64,000 nt of DNA, taken from NCBI RefSeq assembly GCF_021531915.1, contig NZ_JAFBIV010000002.1, positions 62,001 through 126,000 on the forward strand. Reading direction: 5' to 3'. Position 1 is the first letter of the stretch, and the number at the start of each line of letters is the position of its first letter. This stretch comes from Oscillibacter valericigenes. GTDB lineage: Bacteria > Bacillota > Clostridia > Oscillospirales > Oscillospiraceae. Below the pieces are notes generated by a model. That model did no database searches. It was not told where the DNA came from and saw nothing but the letters and a program-made list of their open reading frames with translations. A program made the translations under genes and the position numbers. Positions 28,724 to 35,918 of the stretch are shown in pieces.

Positions 28724-29920
28724 ATGAAAAAGAAGTTTTTCGCACTCATGATGGCCATGGTCATGGTCCTCAGCCTGGCTGCCTGCGGCGGCAAGTCCGA
28801 AACCTCTGCCCCCGCCAACAACGACGCCCCCGCCCAGAGCGGTGAGACCGCCGAAGGCGGCAGCACCTTCAAGCTGGGTACCATCGGCCCCCTGACCGGT
28901 GACGCCGCCATCTACGGCCAGGCCGTGGCCAACGGCGCCAAGATCGCCGTGGACGAGATCAACGCCAGCGACAGCGCCATCAAGTTCGAGTTCCAGTCCG
29001 AGGACGACGTGGCTGACGGCGAGACCTCCGTCAACGCCTACAACACCCTGATGGACTGGGGCATGCAGGTCATGGTCGGCCCCACCACCACCGGCGCCTC
29101 CATCGCCGTTGCCGCCAAGGCCGCTGAGGAGCGCACCTTCATGCTGACTCCCTCCGCCTCCTCCACCGACGTCATCGCCCCCGGCGACAACGTCTTCCAG
29201 GTCTGCTTCACCGACCCCAACCAGGGCATCGCCTCCGCCGACTACATGGCTGCCAACATGGCCGGTGCCAAGATCGCTGTGATCTACCGCAACGACGACG
29301 CCTATTCCCAGGGTATCCGCGACACCTTCGTCTCTCAGGCCAAGGCCAACAGCCTGGAGCTCGTCTATGAGGGCACCTTCACCGCTGACACCGCCACCGA
29401 CTTCTCCGTGCAGCTGACCGCTGCCCAGGCCGCCGGCGCCGACACCGTGTTCCTGCCCATCTACTATCAGCCCGCCTCCGTCATCCTGACCCAGGCCGCC
29501 GCCATGAACTATGCTCCCACCTTCTTCGGCGTGGACGGCATGGACGGCATCCTGACCATGGAGGGCTTCGACACCGCTCTGGCTGAGGGCGTTATGCTGC
29601 TGACCCCCTTCTCCGCCGACGCCACTGACGAGCGCACCCAGAACTTCGTGAAGGCCTATCAGGCCGCTTACGGCGAGATCCCCAACCAGTTTGCCGCCGA
29701 CGCCTATGACGGCGTGTACATCGTCAAGGCCGCTCTGGAAGCCGCCGGCTGCACCGGCGACATGTCCTCCGCCGACATCTGCGAGGCTCTGGTGGGCGTC
29801 ATGTCCTCCATCTCCGTGGATGGCCTGACCGGCCAGGGCATGACCTGGTCCGCCAATGGCGAGGTCTCCAAGGCCCCCATGGCCGTTGTCATCGAGAACG
29901 GCACCTACGTTCTGCCCTGA
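28724..29920 (+). CDS. livK: Branched-chain amino acid ABC transporter substrate-binding lipoprotein
   Basis: This 398-residue periplasmic-binding-type protein begins with a lipoprotein signal ending LSLAAC (Cys at 21) and an Ala/Asn/Gly-rich spacer. The type I fold starts at KLGTIGPLTGDAAIYGQAV near residue 50, the Leu/Ile/Val-binding protein hallmark, and FFGVDGMDG near 266 is in the hinge region. It captures branched-chain or other amino acids for LivHMGF. Codons are highly biased, consistent with abundance. AAAGGAG precedes the ATG. Two large hairpins separate it from livH, which may give it a higher level than the membrane parts. Confidence 0.92.
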   Translation: MKKKFFALMMAMVMVLSLAACGGKSETSAPANNDAPAQSGETAEGGSTFKLGTIGPLTGDAAIYGQAVANGAKIAVDEINASDSAIKFEFQSEDDVADGETSVNAYNTLMDWGMQVMVGPTTTGASIAVAAKAAEERTFMLTPSASSTDVIAPGDNVFQVCFTDPNQGIASADYMAANMAGAKIAVIYRNDDAYSQGIRDTFVSQAKANSLELVYEGTFTADTATDFSVQLTAAQAAGADTVFLPIYYQPASVILTQAAAMNYAPTFFGVDGMDGILTMEGFDTALAEGVMLLTPFSADATDERTQNFVKAYQAAYGEIPNQFAADAYDGVYIVKAALEAAGCTGDMSSADICEALVGVMSSISVDGLTGQGMTWSANGEVSKAPMAVVIENGTYVLP

Positions 29921-29945
29921 GTTTTCTGTTCCAGACAACAGCGAT

Positions 29946-29976
29946 CCGCCGGAGGGGGGCAGCCCCCTTCCGGCGG
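29946..29976 (+). other. GC-rich hairpin in the livK-livH gap
   Basis: CCGCCGGA and TCCGGCGG flank a run of five G-C pairs (14 bp in all) with a tiny loop and no following T-run. It is not a normal terminator and may protect the livK 3' end. Confidence 0.7.
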
Positions 29977-29992
29977 TCCCCCGCGTTCCGCG

Positions 29993-30049
29993 TTCTATGG
30001 CGGAAACAGGGGCAGAAGGACGCTTTCTGTCCGTTTTTCTGCCATAGAA
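29993..30049 (+). other. Long imperfect hairpin in the livK-livH gap
   Basis: TTCTATGGC (29993-30001) pairs with GCCATAGAA (30041-30049), and inner segments GGAAAC/GTTTTTC and GGCAGAA/TTTCTGTCC extend the stem to about 25 pairs with small bulges. It ends 40 bases before livH. Confidence 0.65.
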
Positions 30050-30088
30050 ATTCAGAAGATCGAATGAAAGAAAAAGAGGTGTGTCCCT

Positions 30089-30991
30089 ATGGAATTTCTC
30101 TCCTATCTGATCAGCGGCATCAGCCTGGGGAGCGTATACGCCATCATCGCCCTGGGCTACACCATGGTGTACGGCATTGCCAAAATGCTGAACTTCGCCC
30201 ACGGCGATGTCATCATGGTGGGTGGCTATATCTCCTTCTGCGCCATCAGCTATCTGGGCCTGCCCGGCTGGCTGGCTCTCATTCTGGCCATGGTGGTCTG
30301 CACGGTGCTGGGCATCGTCATTGAGGGCCTTGCCTACAAGCCCCTCCGCAGCGCCCCCTCCCTGGCCGTGCTGATCACCGCCATCGGCGTCAGCTATTTC
30401 CTGCAGAACACTGCCCTGCTGATCTGGAAGGCGGCCCCCAAGGTCTATCCCTCCCTGATCCCCACCACCAACGCCCAGGGCGAGTCCAACGCCCTGCAGC
30501 TGTTTGGCGGTCAGCTCTCCATCTCCTACATCTCTCTGCTGACCATGGCCTCCTGCATCGTCATCATGATCGCCCTGACCCTCTTCACCAGCAAGACCAA
30601 GATGGGCAAGGCCATGCGGGCCTGCTCCGAGGATAAGGGCGCTGCCCAGCTCATGGGCATCAACGTCAACGCCACCATCTCCACCACCTTCGCCATCGGC
30701 TCCGCTCTGGCGGCCATCGCCGGCGTGCTGCTGTGCTCCTCCTATCCCACGCTGCAGCCCACCACCGGCTCCATGCCCGGCATCAAGGCCTTCACTGCCG
30801 CCGTGTTCGGCGGCATCGGCTCCATCCCCGGCGCTTTCCTGGGCGGTTTGCTGCTGGGCGTCATCGAGGCCATGGCCAAGGCCTACATCTCCACCAACCT
30901 GGCCAACACCATCGTGTTCGCCGTGTTGATCATCGTCCTGCTGGTGAAACCCGCAGGCCTGCTGGGCAAGTATGTCCCGGAGAAAGTGTAA
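30089..30991 (+). CDS. livH: Branched-chain amino acid ABC transporter permease LivH
   Basis: The 300-residue membrane protein has eight hydrophobic segments and the LivH hallmarks: LISGISLGSVYAIIALGYTM near residue 7 with the following MVYGIAKMLNFAHGD, and KAMRACSEDKGAAQLMGIN near 172, the cytoplasmic coupling loop that contacts the ATPase. AAAGAGGTGTG lies before the ATG. It forms the translocation pore with LivM. Confidence 0.94.
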   Translation: MEFLSYLISGISLGSVYAIIALGYTMVYGIAKMLNFAHGDVIMVGGYISFCAISYLGLPGWLALILAMVVCTVLGIVIEGLAYKPLRSAPSLAVLITAIGVSYFLQNTALLIWKAAPKVYPSLIPTTNAQGESNALQLFGGQLSISYISLLTMASCIVIMIALTLFTSKTKMGKAMRACSEDKGAAQLMGINVNATISTTFAIGSALAAIAGVLLCSSYPTLQPTTGSMPGIKAFTAAVFGGIGSIPGAFLGGLLLGVIEAMAKAYISTNLANTIVFAVLIIVLLVKPAGLLGKYVPEKV

Positions 30992-31001
30992 GGTGAGGGA
31001 C

Positions 31002-32072
31002 ATGAAAAAACTGCGTATCAAACAGCACACCCGCACGGATTTCCTGACATATCTGGGGGTCATCATCCTCTTTGTGGTGATGAACGTCCTCAAGTCCAAC
31101 GGCAGCCTGAGCCGCTCTCTCACCGGCCAGCTGGTCCCCATCTGCTGCTATATGTCCATGGCCGTGTCCCTGAACCTGACGGTGGGCATCCTGGGCGAGC
31201 TGAGCCTGGGCCACGCGGGCTTTATGAGCGTGGGCGCCTTCTCCGGCATCGTGGCCGCCATGAGCCTGCAGAACATCATTCCCGCCGCGCCGCTGCGTCT
31301 GGCGGTAGCCATGGTCATCGGTGCCGCCGCCGCTGCCATCGCCGGTGCCATCGTGGGCACCCCTGTGCTGCGTCTGCGGGGCGACTATCTGGCCATCGTG
31401 ACCCTGGCCTTCGGCGAGATCATCAAGGACCTGGTGAACTGCCTGCTGGTGGGCTATGATGCCAAGGGCCTCCACATGGCCTTCAACCTCACCGGCAGCA
31501 AGACCATCGACGACCTGGGCATGAAGGAAGGCGGCATCGCCATCATCAAGGGCGCCCAGGGCGCTACCGGCACCACCACCATCGCCAGCTTCACCGCCGG
31601 CTTCATCCTGGTGATGGTGACCCTGTTCGTGGTGCTGAACCTGAAGCACAGCCGTGCCGGCCGGGCCATCATGGCCCTTCGGGACAACGCCATCGCCGCC
31701 GAGAGCGTGGGCATCAACATCACCAAGTACAAGATGATGGCCTTCGTCACCTCCGCCGCCCTGGCCGGTGCCGCCGGTGCCCTGTACGGCCTGAACTTCT
31801 CCTCCCTGCAGGCCACCAAGTTCAACTTCAACACCTCCATCCTGATCCTGGTGTTCGTGGTGCTGGGCGGCCTGGGCAACCTGTGGGGCTCCCTGATCGC
31901 GGCCGCCGCCCTGACGGTCCTGCCGGAGCTGCTGCGTGCCTTCTCCGACTACCGGATGCTGGTGTACGCCATCGTGCTGATCCTGGTGATGCTGGCCACC
32001 AACAACCCCACCCTCAAGACATTCTTCAGCCGCTTCAAGCTGCACAAGCCCACCGGAAAGGAGGCCGTCTGA
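31002..32072 (+). CDS. livM: Branched-chain amino acid ABC transporter permease LivM
   Basis: This 356-residue permease has about ten hydrophobic segments and the LivM pattern SLNLTVGILGELSLGHAGFM near residue 56, RLRGDYLAIVTLAFGEI near 122 and the coupling loop RAIMALRDNAIAAESVGIN near 220. The ATG at 31002 follows AAGGTGAGGG by two to four bases less than optimal, so a slightly different start is possible; upstream in-frame codons overlap livH. It partners LivH. Confidence 0.93.
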   Translation: MKKLRIKQHTRTDFLTYLGVIILFVVMNVLKSNGSLSRSLTGQLVPICCYMSMAVSLNLTVGILGELSLGHAGFMSVGAFSGIVAAMSLQNIIPAAPLRLAVAMVIGAAAAAIAGAIVGTPVLRLRGDYLAIVTLAFGEIIKDLVNCLLVGYDAKGLHMAFNLTGSKTIDDLGMKEGGIAIIKGAQGATGTTTIASFTAGFILVMVTLFVVLNLKHSRAGRAIMALRDNAIAAESVGINITKYKMMAFVTSAALAGAAGALYGLNFSSLQATKFNFNTSILILVFVVLGGLGNLWGSLIAAAALTVLPELLRAFSDYRMLVYAIVLILVMLATNNPTLKTFFSRFKLHKPTGKEAV

Positions 32073-32073
32073 C

Positions 32074-32907
<834 letters not shown>

Positions 32908-32910
32908 TCC

Positions 32911-33621
32911 ATGGCATCTATTCTGAAAGTTGACGACATCAACGTCTATTACGGCAGCATCCATGCCATCAAGGGCATCTCCTTCGAGGTGAACGAGGGT
33001 GAGATCGTCACTCTGATCGGCGCCAACGGCGCCGGCAAGTCCACCACCCTGAACACCATCTCCGGCCTGCTGCACAGCCGCACTGGCTCCGTCACCTTCA
33101 TGGACGAGAACCTGGGTAAGATCCCCTGCCACAAAATCGTCTCCAAGGGTCTGGCCCTGGTCCCCGAGGGACGCCGGGTGTTCTTGCAGATGACCGTCCA
33201 GGAGAATCTGGAAATGGGTGCCTACACCCAGAGCGGCAAGGCCATCGACCAGGACCTGGCGCATGTCTATGAGCTGTTCCCCCGGCTGAAGGAGCGTATG
33301 AAGCAGGTGGCCGGTACCCTCTCCGGCGGTGAGCAGCAGATGCTGGCCATGGGCCGCGCCCTCATGAGCCACCCCAAGCTGCTGATGCTGGACGAGCCCT
33401 CCATGGGCCTGGCCCCTATCCTGGTGGAGCAGATCTTCGAGATCATCCAGAACCTCCACAAGGAGGGCACCACCATCCTGCTGGTGGAGCAGAATGCTGC
33501 CGCGGCCCTGAGCGTAGCTGACCGTGGCTACGTGCTGGAGACCGGCAAAATCGTCACCTCTGGCTCCGGCAAGGAGCTTCTGGCCTCCCCTGCCATCAAA
33601 AAAGCATATCTGGGCGGCTAA
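32911..33621 (+). CDS. livF: Branched-chain amino acid ABC transporter ATPase LivF
   Basis: The 236-residue ATPase shows Walker A GANGAGKST near residue 37, the LivF hallmark ALVPEGRRVFLQMTVQENLE near 83, signature TLSGGEQQMLAMGRAL near 138, Walker B LLMLDEPSMGLA and switch VEQNAAAAL. Length and all motifs are normal. AAAGGAGG overlaps the livG stop region, so the two ATPases are coupled. A terminator closes the operon. Confidence 0.94.
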   Translation: MASILKVDDINVYYGSIHAIKGISFEVNEGEIVTLIGANGAGKSTTLNTISGLLHSRTGSVTFMDENLGKIPCHKIVSKGLALVPEGRRVFLQMTVQENLEMGAYTQSGKAIDQDLAHVYELFPRLKERMKQVAGTLSGGEQQMLAMGRALMSHPKLLMLDEPSMGLAPILVEQIFEIIQNLHKEGTTILLVEQNAAAALSVADRGYVLETGKIVTSGSGKELLASPAIKKAYLGG

Positions 33622-33630
33622 AGCCCTGCG

Positions 33631-33660
33631 AAAAGGAGAGCGCAGTACGCTCTCCTTTTT
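33631..33660 (+). terminator. Terminator of the liv operon
   Basis: AAAAGGAGAGCG and CGCTCTCCTTTT pair over a CAGTA loop, ending in a T-run. Confidence 0.88.
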
Positions 33661-33662
33661 GT

Positions 33663-33690
33663 TTGCAATTTCCCCGCAATGTGGTATACT
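33663..33690 (+). promoter_or_regulatory. Promoter of niaR
   Basis: TTGCAA (33663-33668) and TATACT (33685-33690) are 16 bases apart. The open-frame ATG at 33697 lies at the transcription start and cannot be used. Confidence 0.55.
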
Positions 33691-33720
33691 GCTGACATGA
33701 CACAAAGGAGGGATCTGCCC

Positions 33721-34236
33721 ATGCGCGCCGAGGAACGCCGCCAAGCCATTCTGGACATTCTGAATCAATCCGGCCTTCCGGTCAGCGCCGCATCCCTGGC
33801 CCGGCAGTTCTCCGTCAGCCGGCAGATCATTGTGGGGGACATTGCCCTCCTGCGGGCCGCAGGAGCGGACATCTCTGCCACGCCCAGGGGCTATGTGGCG
33901 CACCAGCCCTCCCCGGCAGGTCTGGTGCGGCAGGTGGCCTGCCGCCACGACGCCCTTGGCATGGAGACGGAGCTGAACGCCATGGTGGACCAGGGCTGCA
34001 CCGTGTTGGACGTGATCGTAGAGCATCCCATCTACGGCCAGCTTACCGGCCCTCTCCAGCTTTCCAGCCGGTACGATGTGACCCAGTTCATCGTCCGCTG
34101 CACCCAGGCAGATGCCCGGCCCCTGTCGGACTTGACGGAGGGCATCCACCTCCACACCCTATCCTGCCCCAGTGAAGACGCTTTCCAGCGGGTCCGGACG
34201 GCCCTCCGGGATATGGGGGTTCTGGTAGAAGGCTGA
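33721..34236 (+). CDS. niaR: NiaR-like (YrxA/3H domain) transcriptional repressor
   Basis: This 171-residue protein has an N-terminal helix-turn-helix (ILNQSGLPVSAASLARQFSV, then SRQIIVGDIALLRAAG) of the HTH_11 type and a C-terminal 3H domain. The 3H histidines are visible in CRHDALGMETEL near residue 77, DVIVEHPIYGQL near 100 and GIHLHTL near 142. This is the architecture of NiaR, the nicotinate-responsive repressor of NAD synthesis and niacin uptake genes in Firmicutes, in which the His residues bind a divalent metal. ATG at 33721 has AAAGGAGGG nine bases upstream. The adjacent downstream gene begins with a 34-base palindrome, a plausible operator. Confidence 0.88.
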   Translation: MRAEERRQAILDILNQSGLPVSAASLARQFSVSRQIIVGDIALLRAAGADISATPRGYVAHQPSPAGLVRQVACRHDALGMETELNAMVDQGCTVLDVIVEHPIYGQLTGPLQLSSRYDVTQFIVRCTQADARPLSDLTEGIHLHTLSCPSEDAFQRVRTALRDMGVLVEG

Positions 34237-34245
34237 AAATCCCTG

Positions 34246-34274
34246 TTGACAATCCCAATATTTCCATGTATAGT
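34246..34274 (+). promoter_or_regulatory. Promoter of the PfoR-like gene
   Basis: A perfect TTGACA (34246-34251) and TATAGT (34269-34274) are 17 bases apart. The operator-like palindrome starts at the very next base. Confidence 0.75.
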
Positions 34275-34308
34275 GTGGTAGACAGGTGTCAAGACACCTG
34301 TCTACCAC
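34275..34308 (+). promoter_or_regulatory. 34-base palindrome, putative NiaR operator
   Basis: GTGGTAGACAGGTGTC (34275-34290) and its exact reverse complement GACACCTGTCTACCAC (34293-34308) flank AA. It begins right after the -10 box, so a bound repressor would sit on the transcription start. TTTTATTT follows, so it could also act as a terminator for niaR; the promoter placement favours an operator. Confidence 0.65.
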
Positions 34309-34330
34309 TTTTATTTAACAAAGGAAACAG

Positions 34331-35440
34331 GTGCTCTCCATGGAAAATGTCAAAACTTTTCTGAAACGCAAAAACATCATTTTCTCTGCCAAGCGGTACG
34401 GCATCGACGCTCTGGGCGCCATGGCCCAGGGCCTGTTCTGCTCTCTGCTGATCGGCACGATCCTGAACACCATCGGCGCTCAGTTCCACATTGGCTTCCT
34501 CACTGCCCAGATTGCTGAAAAGGTCCCCTACACCGTAGGCGGTCTGGCTTCCTTCATGAGCGGTCCCGCCATGGCTATCGCCATCGGCTACGCCCTCCAG
34601 GCTCCGCCGCTGGTGCTGTTCTCCCTGGCCGCCGTGGGCTATGCCTGCAACCTGCTGGGCGGTGCGGGCGGTCCCCTGGCAGTGCTGTTCGTAGCCATTA
34701 TCGCCTCCGAGTGCGGCAAGGCCATCAGCAAAGAGACCAAAATTGACATTCTGGTGACACCCATCGTCACCACCCTCATCGGCGTTGGCGCCGCCTATAT
34801 CATCGCACCTCCCATCGGCAAGGTGGCCAGCGCCTTCGGCCAGCTCATCATGCACGCCACGGAGCTGCAGCCCTTCCTGATGGGGATTCTGGTATCCGTA
34901 CTGGTAGGCGTGGCTCTGACGCTGCCCATCTCCTCCGCCGCCATCTGCTCCGTGCTGGGCTTGACGGGTCTGGCGGGCGGTGCCGCTGTGGCGGGCTGCT
35001 GTGCCCAGATGGTGGGCTTCGCCGTCATGAGCTTCAAGGAGAACGGCTGGGGCGGCCTGGTGAGCCAGGGCCTGGGCACCTCCATGCTGCAGATGCCCAA
35101 CATCGTGAAAAATCCCCGGATCTGGATCGCTCCCACGCTGGTCTCTGCCATCACCGGCCCCATCGCCACCTGCTTGTTCAAGCTGGAAATGAACGGAGCC
35201 GCCATCAACTCCGGCATGGGCACCTGCGGTCTGTGCGGCCAGTTGGGCGTGTGGACCGGCTGGGTGGCCCCCAGCGAACAGGCCATTTCCAACGGCGCTG
35301 CTGCTCTGTCCCCCACAGCCTTTGACTGGGTGGGCCTGATTCTGATCTCCTTCATTCTCCCTGCCATCCTGGCCCCTGCCATCAACCAGGTGTGCCGCAA
35401 GCTGGGCTGGGTGAAAGACGGAGACCTGACTCTGTCTTGA
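34331..35440 (+). CDS. PfoR-like (PTS EIIC_2 family) membrane transporter
   Basis: The 369-residue protein has about nine hydrophobic segments and belongs to the PfoR / PTS_EIIC_2 family: GIDALGAMAQGLFCSLLIGT near residue 23, GGAGGPLAVLFVAIIASECG near 110 and GMGTCGLCGQLGVWTGW near 295. Despite the PTS name no phosphorylation cysteine module or partner EIIA/EIIB is present, so the substrate path is unknown. GTG at 34331 lies five bases after AAAGGA and is preferred to the ATG at 34340, which would be 14 away. The gene follows a NiaR-like repressor and a palindrome at its transcription start, suggesting niacin or a related molecule as cargo. Confidence 0.85.
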   Translation: MLSMENVKTFLKRKNIIFSAKRYGIDALGAMAQGLFCSLLIGTILNTIGAQFHIGFLTAQIAEKVPYTVGGLASFMSGPAMAIAIGYALQAPPLVLFSLAAVGYACNLLGGAGGPLAVLFVAIIASECGKAISKETKIDILVTPIVTTLIGVGAAYIIAPPIGKVASAFGQLIMHATELQPFLMGILVSVLVGVALTLPISSAAICSVLGLTGLAGGAAVAGCCAQMVGFAVMSFKENGWGGLVSQGLGTSMLQMPNIVKNPRIWIAPTLVSAITGPIATCLFKLEMNGAAINSGMGTCGLCGQLGVWTGWVAPSEQAISNGAAALSPTAFDWVGLILISFILPAILAPAINQVCRKLGWVKDGDLTLS

Positions 35441-35498: not shown

Positions 35499-35918
35499 AT
35501 GGAATACCGCAAGTTTGACAATACCTACATCGTCCGGCTGGACCCGGGCGAAGAAATATTGGAGCAGGTGAAGGTCCTGTCCCTCAAGGAGGGCATCCAG
35601 CTGGCTACCGTGCAAGGGCTGGGTGCGGTCAACGACCTGACCCTGGGCATCTTTAAGCCCGACGAGAAGAAATACTACGCCAATAGCTTCCAAGGCTATT
35701 ATGAGATCGTCTCCCTCACCGGCACCGTCAGCACCATGGACGGCGAATTCTACTGCCACCTGCACCTGAGCGCCGGGGACGCGACCGGCCATGTGGTGGG
35801 CGGTCATCTGAACAAGGCCGTCATCAGCGCCACCGCCGAGCTGGTAGTAACGGTCATCCCCAGCACCGTGGACCGGGCATACAGCCCGGAGATCGGCCTG
35901 AATCTACTGAAGTTCTAA
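35499..35918 (+). CDS. PPC domain (DUF296) protein
   Basis: The 139-residue protein is a stand-alone PPC (plant and prokaryote conserved) domain. LDPGEEILEQVKVLSLKEGI near residue 14, the metal-binding type YCHLHLSAGD near 84 and GGHLNKAVISATAELVV near 99 are hallmark stretches; the histidines CHLHL and GGHL form the putative zinc site of the trimer. Bacterial members are of unknown role; plant homologues carry AT-hooks. Start 35499 has AAAGGAG seven bases upstream. It follows the PfoR-like gene by 58 bases with no terminator, so it may be in the same transcript. Confidence 0.85.
   Translation: MEYRKFDNTYIVRLDPGEEILEQVKVLSLKEGIQLATVQGLGAVNDLTLGIFKPDEKKYYANSFQGYYEIVSLTGTVSTMDGEFYCHLHLSAGDATGHVVGGHLNKAVISATAELVVTVIPSTVDRAYSPEIGLNLLKF

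Follow-up and report, generated by a model that had tools for sequence, protein, structure and literature searches.

A perfect palindrome at the promoter of a PF13303 membrane-protein gene of Oscillibacter valericigenes as a probable NiaR operator of a candidate niacin importer

Layout of the locus

A perfect inverted repeat was found between a repressor gene and a membrane-protein gene in a window of 64,000 nucleotides (the whole stretch of DNA that was analysed) from the Oscillibacter valericigenes genome (2.49 Mb, 97.7% complete). The features considered here are the following.

33685-33702, + strand: -10 element of niaR, TATACT (33685-33690), with a degenerate NiaR half-box TGACATGACA (33693-33702) just downstream
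33721-34236, + strand: niaR, niacin-responsive repressor with HTH_11 and 3H domains (start at 33721 preferred, AGGAGG before the start)
34246-34274, + strand: sigma-A-type promoter of the PF13303 gene, TTGACA-17-TATAGT (both elements retained by almost every relative)
34275-34308, + strand: whole 34-base palindrome, stem of a predicted RNA hairpin in niaR read-through transcripts
34281-34302, + strand: predicted NiaR operator core GACAGGTGTCAAGACACCTGTC, covering about +1 to +22 (motif match, conservation)
34309-34316, + strand: T-rich tract TTTTATTT directly after the full stem, predicted terminator tail for niaR read-through
34340-35440, + strand: PF13303 (PTS_EIIC_2, PfoR-like) membrane protein of 366 aa, candidate niacin transporter and probable NiaY orthologue
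35499-35918, + strand: PCC/DUF296-domain gene, possibly co-transcribed with the PF13303 gene

The -35 hexamer TTGACA (34246-34251) and the -10 hexamer TATAGT (34269-34274) are 17 bases apart and match the consensus at 11 of 12 positions. The inverted repeat starts on the base directly after the -10 element and consists of two 16-nt arms (34275-34290 and 34293-34308) that are 100% complementary with 2 nt between them, reading GTGGTAGACAGGTGTC-AA-GACACCTGTCTACCAC. This 34-base pattern has a single occurrence in the window and none in 100 shuffles, and by our own arithmetic about 1e-4 inverted repeats with exact 16-base arms and a spacer of 0-8 would be expected by chance in 64 kb. No RNA family was found at the palindrome site in Rfam. 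Counted as +7 from the -10 element, transcription of the PF13303 gene would start near 34281, where the 22-base core begins. An earlier note on this DNA had described a TTGACA/TATAGT promoter with 17-base spacing followed by two exact 16-base arms, which is what lies at 34246-34308; the NiaR-type 3H gene that it placed before the palindrome was recovered as an HTH_11 and 3H protein ending at 34236, and the PfoR/PTS EIIC_2 membrane-protein gene behind it as a PF13303 match (E 2.8e-89, 299.9 bits) at 34340-35440.

The repressor carries an N-terminal HTH_11 domain (PF08279, E 1.2e-14) and a C-terminal 3H domain (PF02829, E 1.2e-32), both above the cut-off, and matches the solved NiaR structures 1j5y/9ebr and 7cv0/7cv2 with E values of 1e-37 to 2e-34. 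The zinc and niacin ligands of BhNiaR, named in PMC7713382 as His83, Glu91, His150 and His152, fall in invariant alignment columns. Judged from its sequence, the repressor is intact and has kept its effector residues. The niaR promoter at 33685-33702 reads TATACTGCTGACATGACA, and at the place of the half-box about 18 relatives carry TATACTGCTGTCAWGACA (TGTCAWGACA), from which the copy in the window differs by one change. Nearly all relatives with this shortened box have the PF13303 gene directly after niaR, and no such box was seen at niaR genes that lack a PF13303 neighbour. The half-box is a probable weak autoregulatory site.

Two neighbouring regions were also noted. Directly upstream, at 28724-33621, lies a branched-chain amino-acid type ABC transporter operon with its own terminator-like hairpin at about 33634-33664; from the appearance of the sequences we take its genes to encode a binding protein, two permeases and two ATPases. 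In about 8 species a co-directional PCC/DUF296 gene comes 48-88 nt after the PF13303 gene; most species have none at this place.

The palindrome core and its distribution

The central 22 bases of the palindrome, GACAGGTGTCAAGACACCTGTC, fit both the type I NiaR operator motif of the Bacillus/Clostridium group, TGT-N4-ACA (PMC7713382), and the core of the pneumococcal NiaR operator TACWRGTGTMTWKACASYTRWAW, which is backed by promoter mutations (PMC5343564). This comparison of the arms with the published motif had been proposed in the earlier note, and it gave a match. When NiaR boxes were scored, the core in the window reached 18/20 and that of many relatives 20/20. As a yardstick, the gel-shift oligo for H. 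halodurans nifS-nadB (PMC7713382) includes TACATATGTCTTGACATCTATA, which obtains 16/20 and is the best site in its 12.5 kb locus. Best scores of at least 14 were rare in shuffled upstream regions (6/1740). The genome search covered sites with up to 3 mismatches, and GACAGGTGTCAAGACACCTGTC was the sole match. The core is almost certainly the binding site of NiaR, a type I operator standing before a presumably NAD-related gene. With the NiaR (YrxA) regulons of Firmicutes the locus shares the 3H/HTH_11 repressor, a TGT-N4-ACA palindrome at the promoter and, if the proposed function holds, a niacin-uptake target; it differs in having one strong site in the genome and no nadABC to control, and in the location of the site at about +1 inside a longer palindrome.

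Among 119 genomes searched, many of them incomplete assemblies, the 3H gene was present in 61, the box in 45 and a PF13303 gene in 89. Wherever niaR is followed by a PF13303 orthologue, the box lies at the promoter of the orthologue, decayed in one genome (G011, 13/20). Where other genes intervene and the orthologue lies 1-1.8 kb from niaR (genomes G049, G013, G036 and G016; loci L012, L034, L056 and L061), the box is kept with the orthologue and not with niaR, and orthologues on a contig other than that of niaR (for example in G005, G015, G022, G033, G037, G048 and G056) have it as well. As the box follows the PF13303 orthologue away from niaR, it belongs to the PF13303 promoter and not to the end of niaR.

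Co-occurrence with the repressor was counted in the 87 genomes that have a PF13303 gene with readable upstream DNA. A box of at least 14/20 was present in 50 of the 55 genomes with a 3H gene and in 4 of the 32 without one (p 1e-13, kinship ignored); these counts are not independent, because most box-bearing genomes come from one genus. Three of the four genomes with a box and no 3H gene are 56-82% complete, and the fourth shows a chance match with unpaired arms. Ahead of the G006 gene (L131), a box whose arms do not pair was discarded as a chance match. Five 3H-positive genomes fell below the threshold: G091, G105 and G108 are limited to a distant PF13303 protein (41-45%) and their NiaR is distant too (36-38%), a 15/20 site lies farther upstream in G068, and the fifth is G011 with its decayed box. 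In G003, which is 96% complete and has no NiaR, the orthologue is 75% identical and the box is degenerate. The search of related genomes suggested in the earlier note found the same palindrome before PF13303 orthologues, and mostly did not find it in genomes without NiaR.

On a tree built from 84 PF13303 proteins, those of this order that have the box form one group with few exceptions, and the box changes state 8 times, compared with 28 when shuffled. In one family (f13) the box is weaker (14/20). A search at 1 mismatch in 391 genomes drawn from the class turned up no further genome with the box. The box is missing from a second PF13303 clade of the genus (L127-L135, 55-60% identical), whose genomes lack NiaR. 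In G105 and G108, NadA-positive relatives of the same order, a distant 3H protein (38% identical to this NiaR) is encoded near nadA (L013 and L044), and the PF13303 genes are unlinked and box-less.

The PF13303 protein and NAD supply

A PDB sequence search with the membrane protein gave no match, NCBIfam returned no name for it, and a single-sequence AlphaFold model was unusable (pLDDT 40.5). A search of its immediate neighbours revealed no PTS EIIA or EIIB genes. It has its Pfam family name in common with PfoR of Clostridium perfringens, which we take to belong to the PTS_EIIC_2 family; here, however, no PTS EIIA/EIIB gene adjoins and there is no toxin gene context. PfoR was suspected of regulating pfoA, and this regulatory role is contradicted by the unchanged pfoA expression in a pfoR mutant (review PMC4448169).

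PncB is present in the genome (TIGR01513 at G000:C60:38174-39553, E 1.3e-171) and was found with the same model in most genus members; a preliminary indication from PF04095 that the genus lacks PncB was wrong. NadA was absent from every genus genome searched, and NadC and PnuC were not found in the analysed genome. The roles of NadA, NadC, PncB and PnuC in NAD supply are established, and a genome with PncB but without the other three must obtain its NAD from imported niacin or nicotinamide. In such a genome, the one strong target of a niacin-sensing repressor points to an importer, and the same gaps strengthen niacin as the substrate. The best reading of these sequence data is that NiaR represses PF13303 as a niacin importer, with niacin or nicotinamide as the probable cargo. 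A second niacin importer, such as NiaX or NiaP, is possible, the transporter search having covered PnuC. NiaX (an ECF S component) and NiaP (MFS) are niacin importers under NiaR in other Firmicutes and belong to unrelated protein families.

Known niacin transporter families are found in only 25% of B3 auxotrophs (PMC6593275), so that the niacin importers of most niacin-requiring gut bacteria are unidentified. The locus offers a specific candidate importer gene and its switch to a large genus seemingly unable to make niacin, and lends support to a function for a family that carries no annotation beyond sugar-PTS component or toxin regulator.

Three niacin transporter families have been reported, NiaP, NiaX and NiaY (PMC5343564, PMC7713382, PMC6593275). 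As relayed from Rodionov 2008 by PMC5343564 and PMC7713382, NiaY is the third predicted NiaR-regulated family and was given for five genomes of Bacilli and Clostridia. In Halalkalibacterium halodurans the PF13303 family has a single gene, whose -35 element is overlain by the NiaR-like box AGGATGTGTCTTGTCATGTGTA; the protein in the window is about 44% identical to its product. We take the two genes between which it lies to be ytpP- and ytoQ-like. The probable equation of PF13303 with NiaY draws on this gene order and on BH3254 of H. halodurans, taken as its NiaY and carrying the SEED role "predicted nicotinate-regulated transporter BH3254"; the cited papers name NiaY without an accession, and a literature search that did not reach the 2008 NiaR regulon paper gave no match for "BH3254" or "nicotinate-regulated transporter". 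Amphibacillus sediminis and Alkalicoccobacillus gibsonii have the same arrangement as H. halodurans, and at the niaR loci of Halalkalibacter and Shouchella the best NiaR-type sites likewise carry the TGTCTTGTCA variant. Among 20 PF13303 genes in Bacilli only three have a clear promoter box. Like NiaY, the protein studied here would be a NiaR-regulated membrane protein, its regulation being indicated by operator sequence and conservation, and it co-occurs with niacin salvage through the PncB of the genome. It is likely, with considerable confidence, that PF13303 is NiaY. The niacin link of this family, of which the earlier note did not know, is probably not new, since NiaY had been predicted and the H. 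halodurans PF13303 gene is boxed; if the two are the same, the importer proposal would be a rediscovery extended to a new genus. The lp2514 protein of L. plantarum proved to be an MFS-type NiaP of another family. The RTGTCTTGTCA-type boxes of three Bacilli PF13303 genes (L254, L255 and L267) overlap the -35 element, compared with the +1 position in the genus of the window.

The outer arms and the end of niaR

While the 22-base core is fixed, the flanking arms vary across species and stay complementary. The observed outer-arm pairs include GTGGTA/TACCAC, ATACGGTT/AACCGTAT, TAAGCCT/AGGCTTA, TATGGTC/GACCATA and GCGGCGTG/CACGCCGC, among others. On average 6.98 of 9 outer positions pair, compared with 4.23 (sd 0.24) in shuffles, and 0 of 5000 shuffles reach 6.98. 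At the 28 loci where niaR is adjacent, the outer arms are complementary at 88% of pairs and at 18-35% when slid out of register. All 28 have at least 4 outer pairs (mean 9.1), with a tail averaging 4.8 T in 8; the means at 21 non-adjacent loci are 5.2 pairs and 2.6 T in 8. A stem followed by at least 4 T in 8 was present at 24/28 niaR-adjacent and 7/21 non-adjacent loci (p 3e-4 with kinship ignored, which inflates p values of such locus comparisons). No other terminator was detected between niaR and the palindrome in the niaR-adjacent loci examined, and three loci without outer pairing (L117, L125 and L126) have a separate terminator upstream. Among non-adjacent loci, a co-directional ORF ends within about 120 nt at 11/12 sites with an extended stem and at 2/8 without one, as counted by hand from mechanical ORFs. 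The predicted folding energy of the read-through RNA in the window is -31.2 kcal/mol (z -6.7), and an RNA from 34281 folds at -14.5 kcal/mol with the U tract no longer adjoining the stem.

Outer arms that vary yet stay complementary, together with a T-rich tract when niaR is directly upstream, make a terminator role probable; the palindrome probably also ends niaR transcription. The earlier note had offered a terminator of niaR as an alternative to the operator. The stem and T tract bear out the terminator, but not its standing as an alternative, an operator and terminator in one element being favoured. The whole reading, a NiaR operator at the start of a NiaR-repressed niacin or nicotinamide importer with outer arms serving as the niaR terminator, is one we hold with fairly high confidence. 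With niacin plentiful, niacin-bound NiaR from the gene just upstream would sit on +1 to +22 and block the promoter; with niacin scarce, NiaR would be released, the PF13303 protein made and niacin taken in, and PncB would convert it to a NAD precursor. The outer arms would lengthen the operator stem and, with the U-rich tract, form the intrinsic terminator of niaR in read-through transcripts. Importer transcripts would start inside the palindrome without the left outer arm and for this reason escape termination. We lean slightly towards the strict form of this design, in which one palindrome would combine NiaR operator, overlap with the importer promoter and niaR terminator, its arms kept complementary while their sequence drifts and only read-through RNA carrying the full stem, so that importer mRNA is spared. 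A compact operator-terminator of this kind lends itself to testing as an element of regulatory design.

Other explanations share parts of this evidence. A palindrome that is solely the intrinsic terminator of niaR would account for the strong stem preceding TTTTATTT and for the lack of another terminator in the niaR-adjacent loci examined, but is very improbable: its core is a NiaR box of fixed sequence, whereas the outer arms vary, and this core accompanies the PF13303 promoter at loci away from niaR and is degenerate or missing in genomes that lack NiaR. A more serious competitor, though still unlikely, is an operator that terminates nothing and whose arm complementarity is neutral. Template-switch mutation can make palindrome arms covary without selection, quasi-palindrome correction of this kind can yield perfect palindromes, and long arms with few T persist at some non-adjacent loci (L108, L112 and L115). 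Template switching would, however, account neither for the T tract nor for the dependence on niaR. Every niaR-adjacent locus keeps the extended stem, T-rich tails are more frequent at these loci than at non-adjacent ones, and the three loci without outer pairing have separate terminators upstream.

The cargo of the protein is a further point of divergence, and it seems improbable that NiaR controls a PF13303 protein with a cargo different from niacin and nicotinamide, or one that is no transporter at all. Pfam names the family after PTS sugar permeases, we know of no measured substrate for it, and PfoR was once proposed as a regulator, despite the result of the pfoR mutation (PMC4448169). Against this, the gene is the one strong NiaR target of a genome in which PncB salvage was the only NAD route found, and a NiaR-like box precedes the single PF13303 gene of H. 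halodurans. Compared with these alternatives, the combined operator and terminator of a niacin or nicotinamide importer is preferred. In many relatives the left arm of the palindrome runs into the -10 region.
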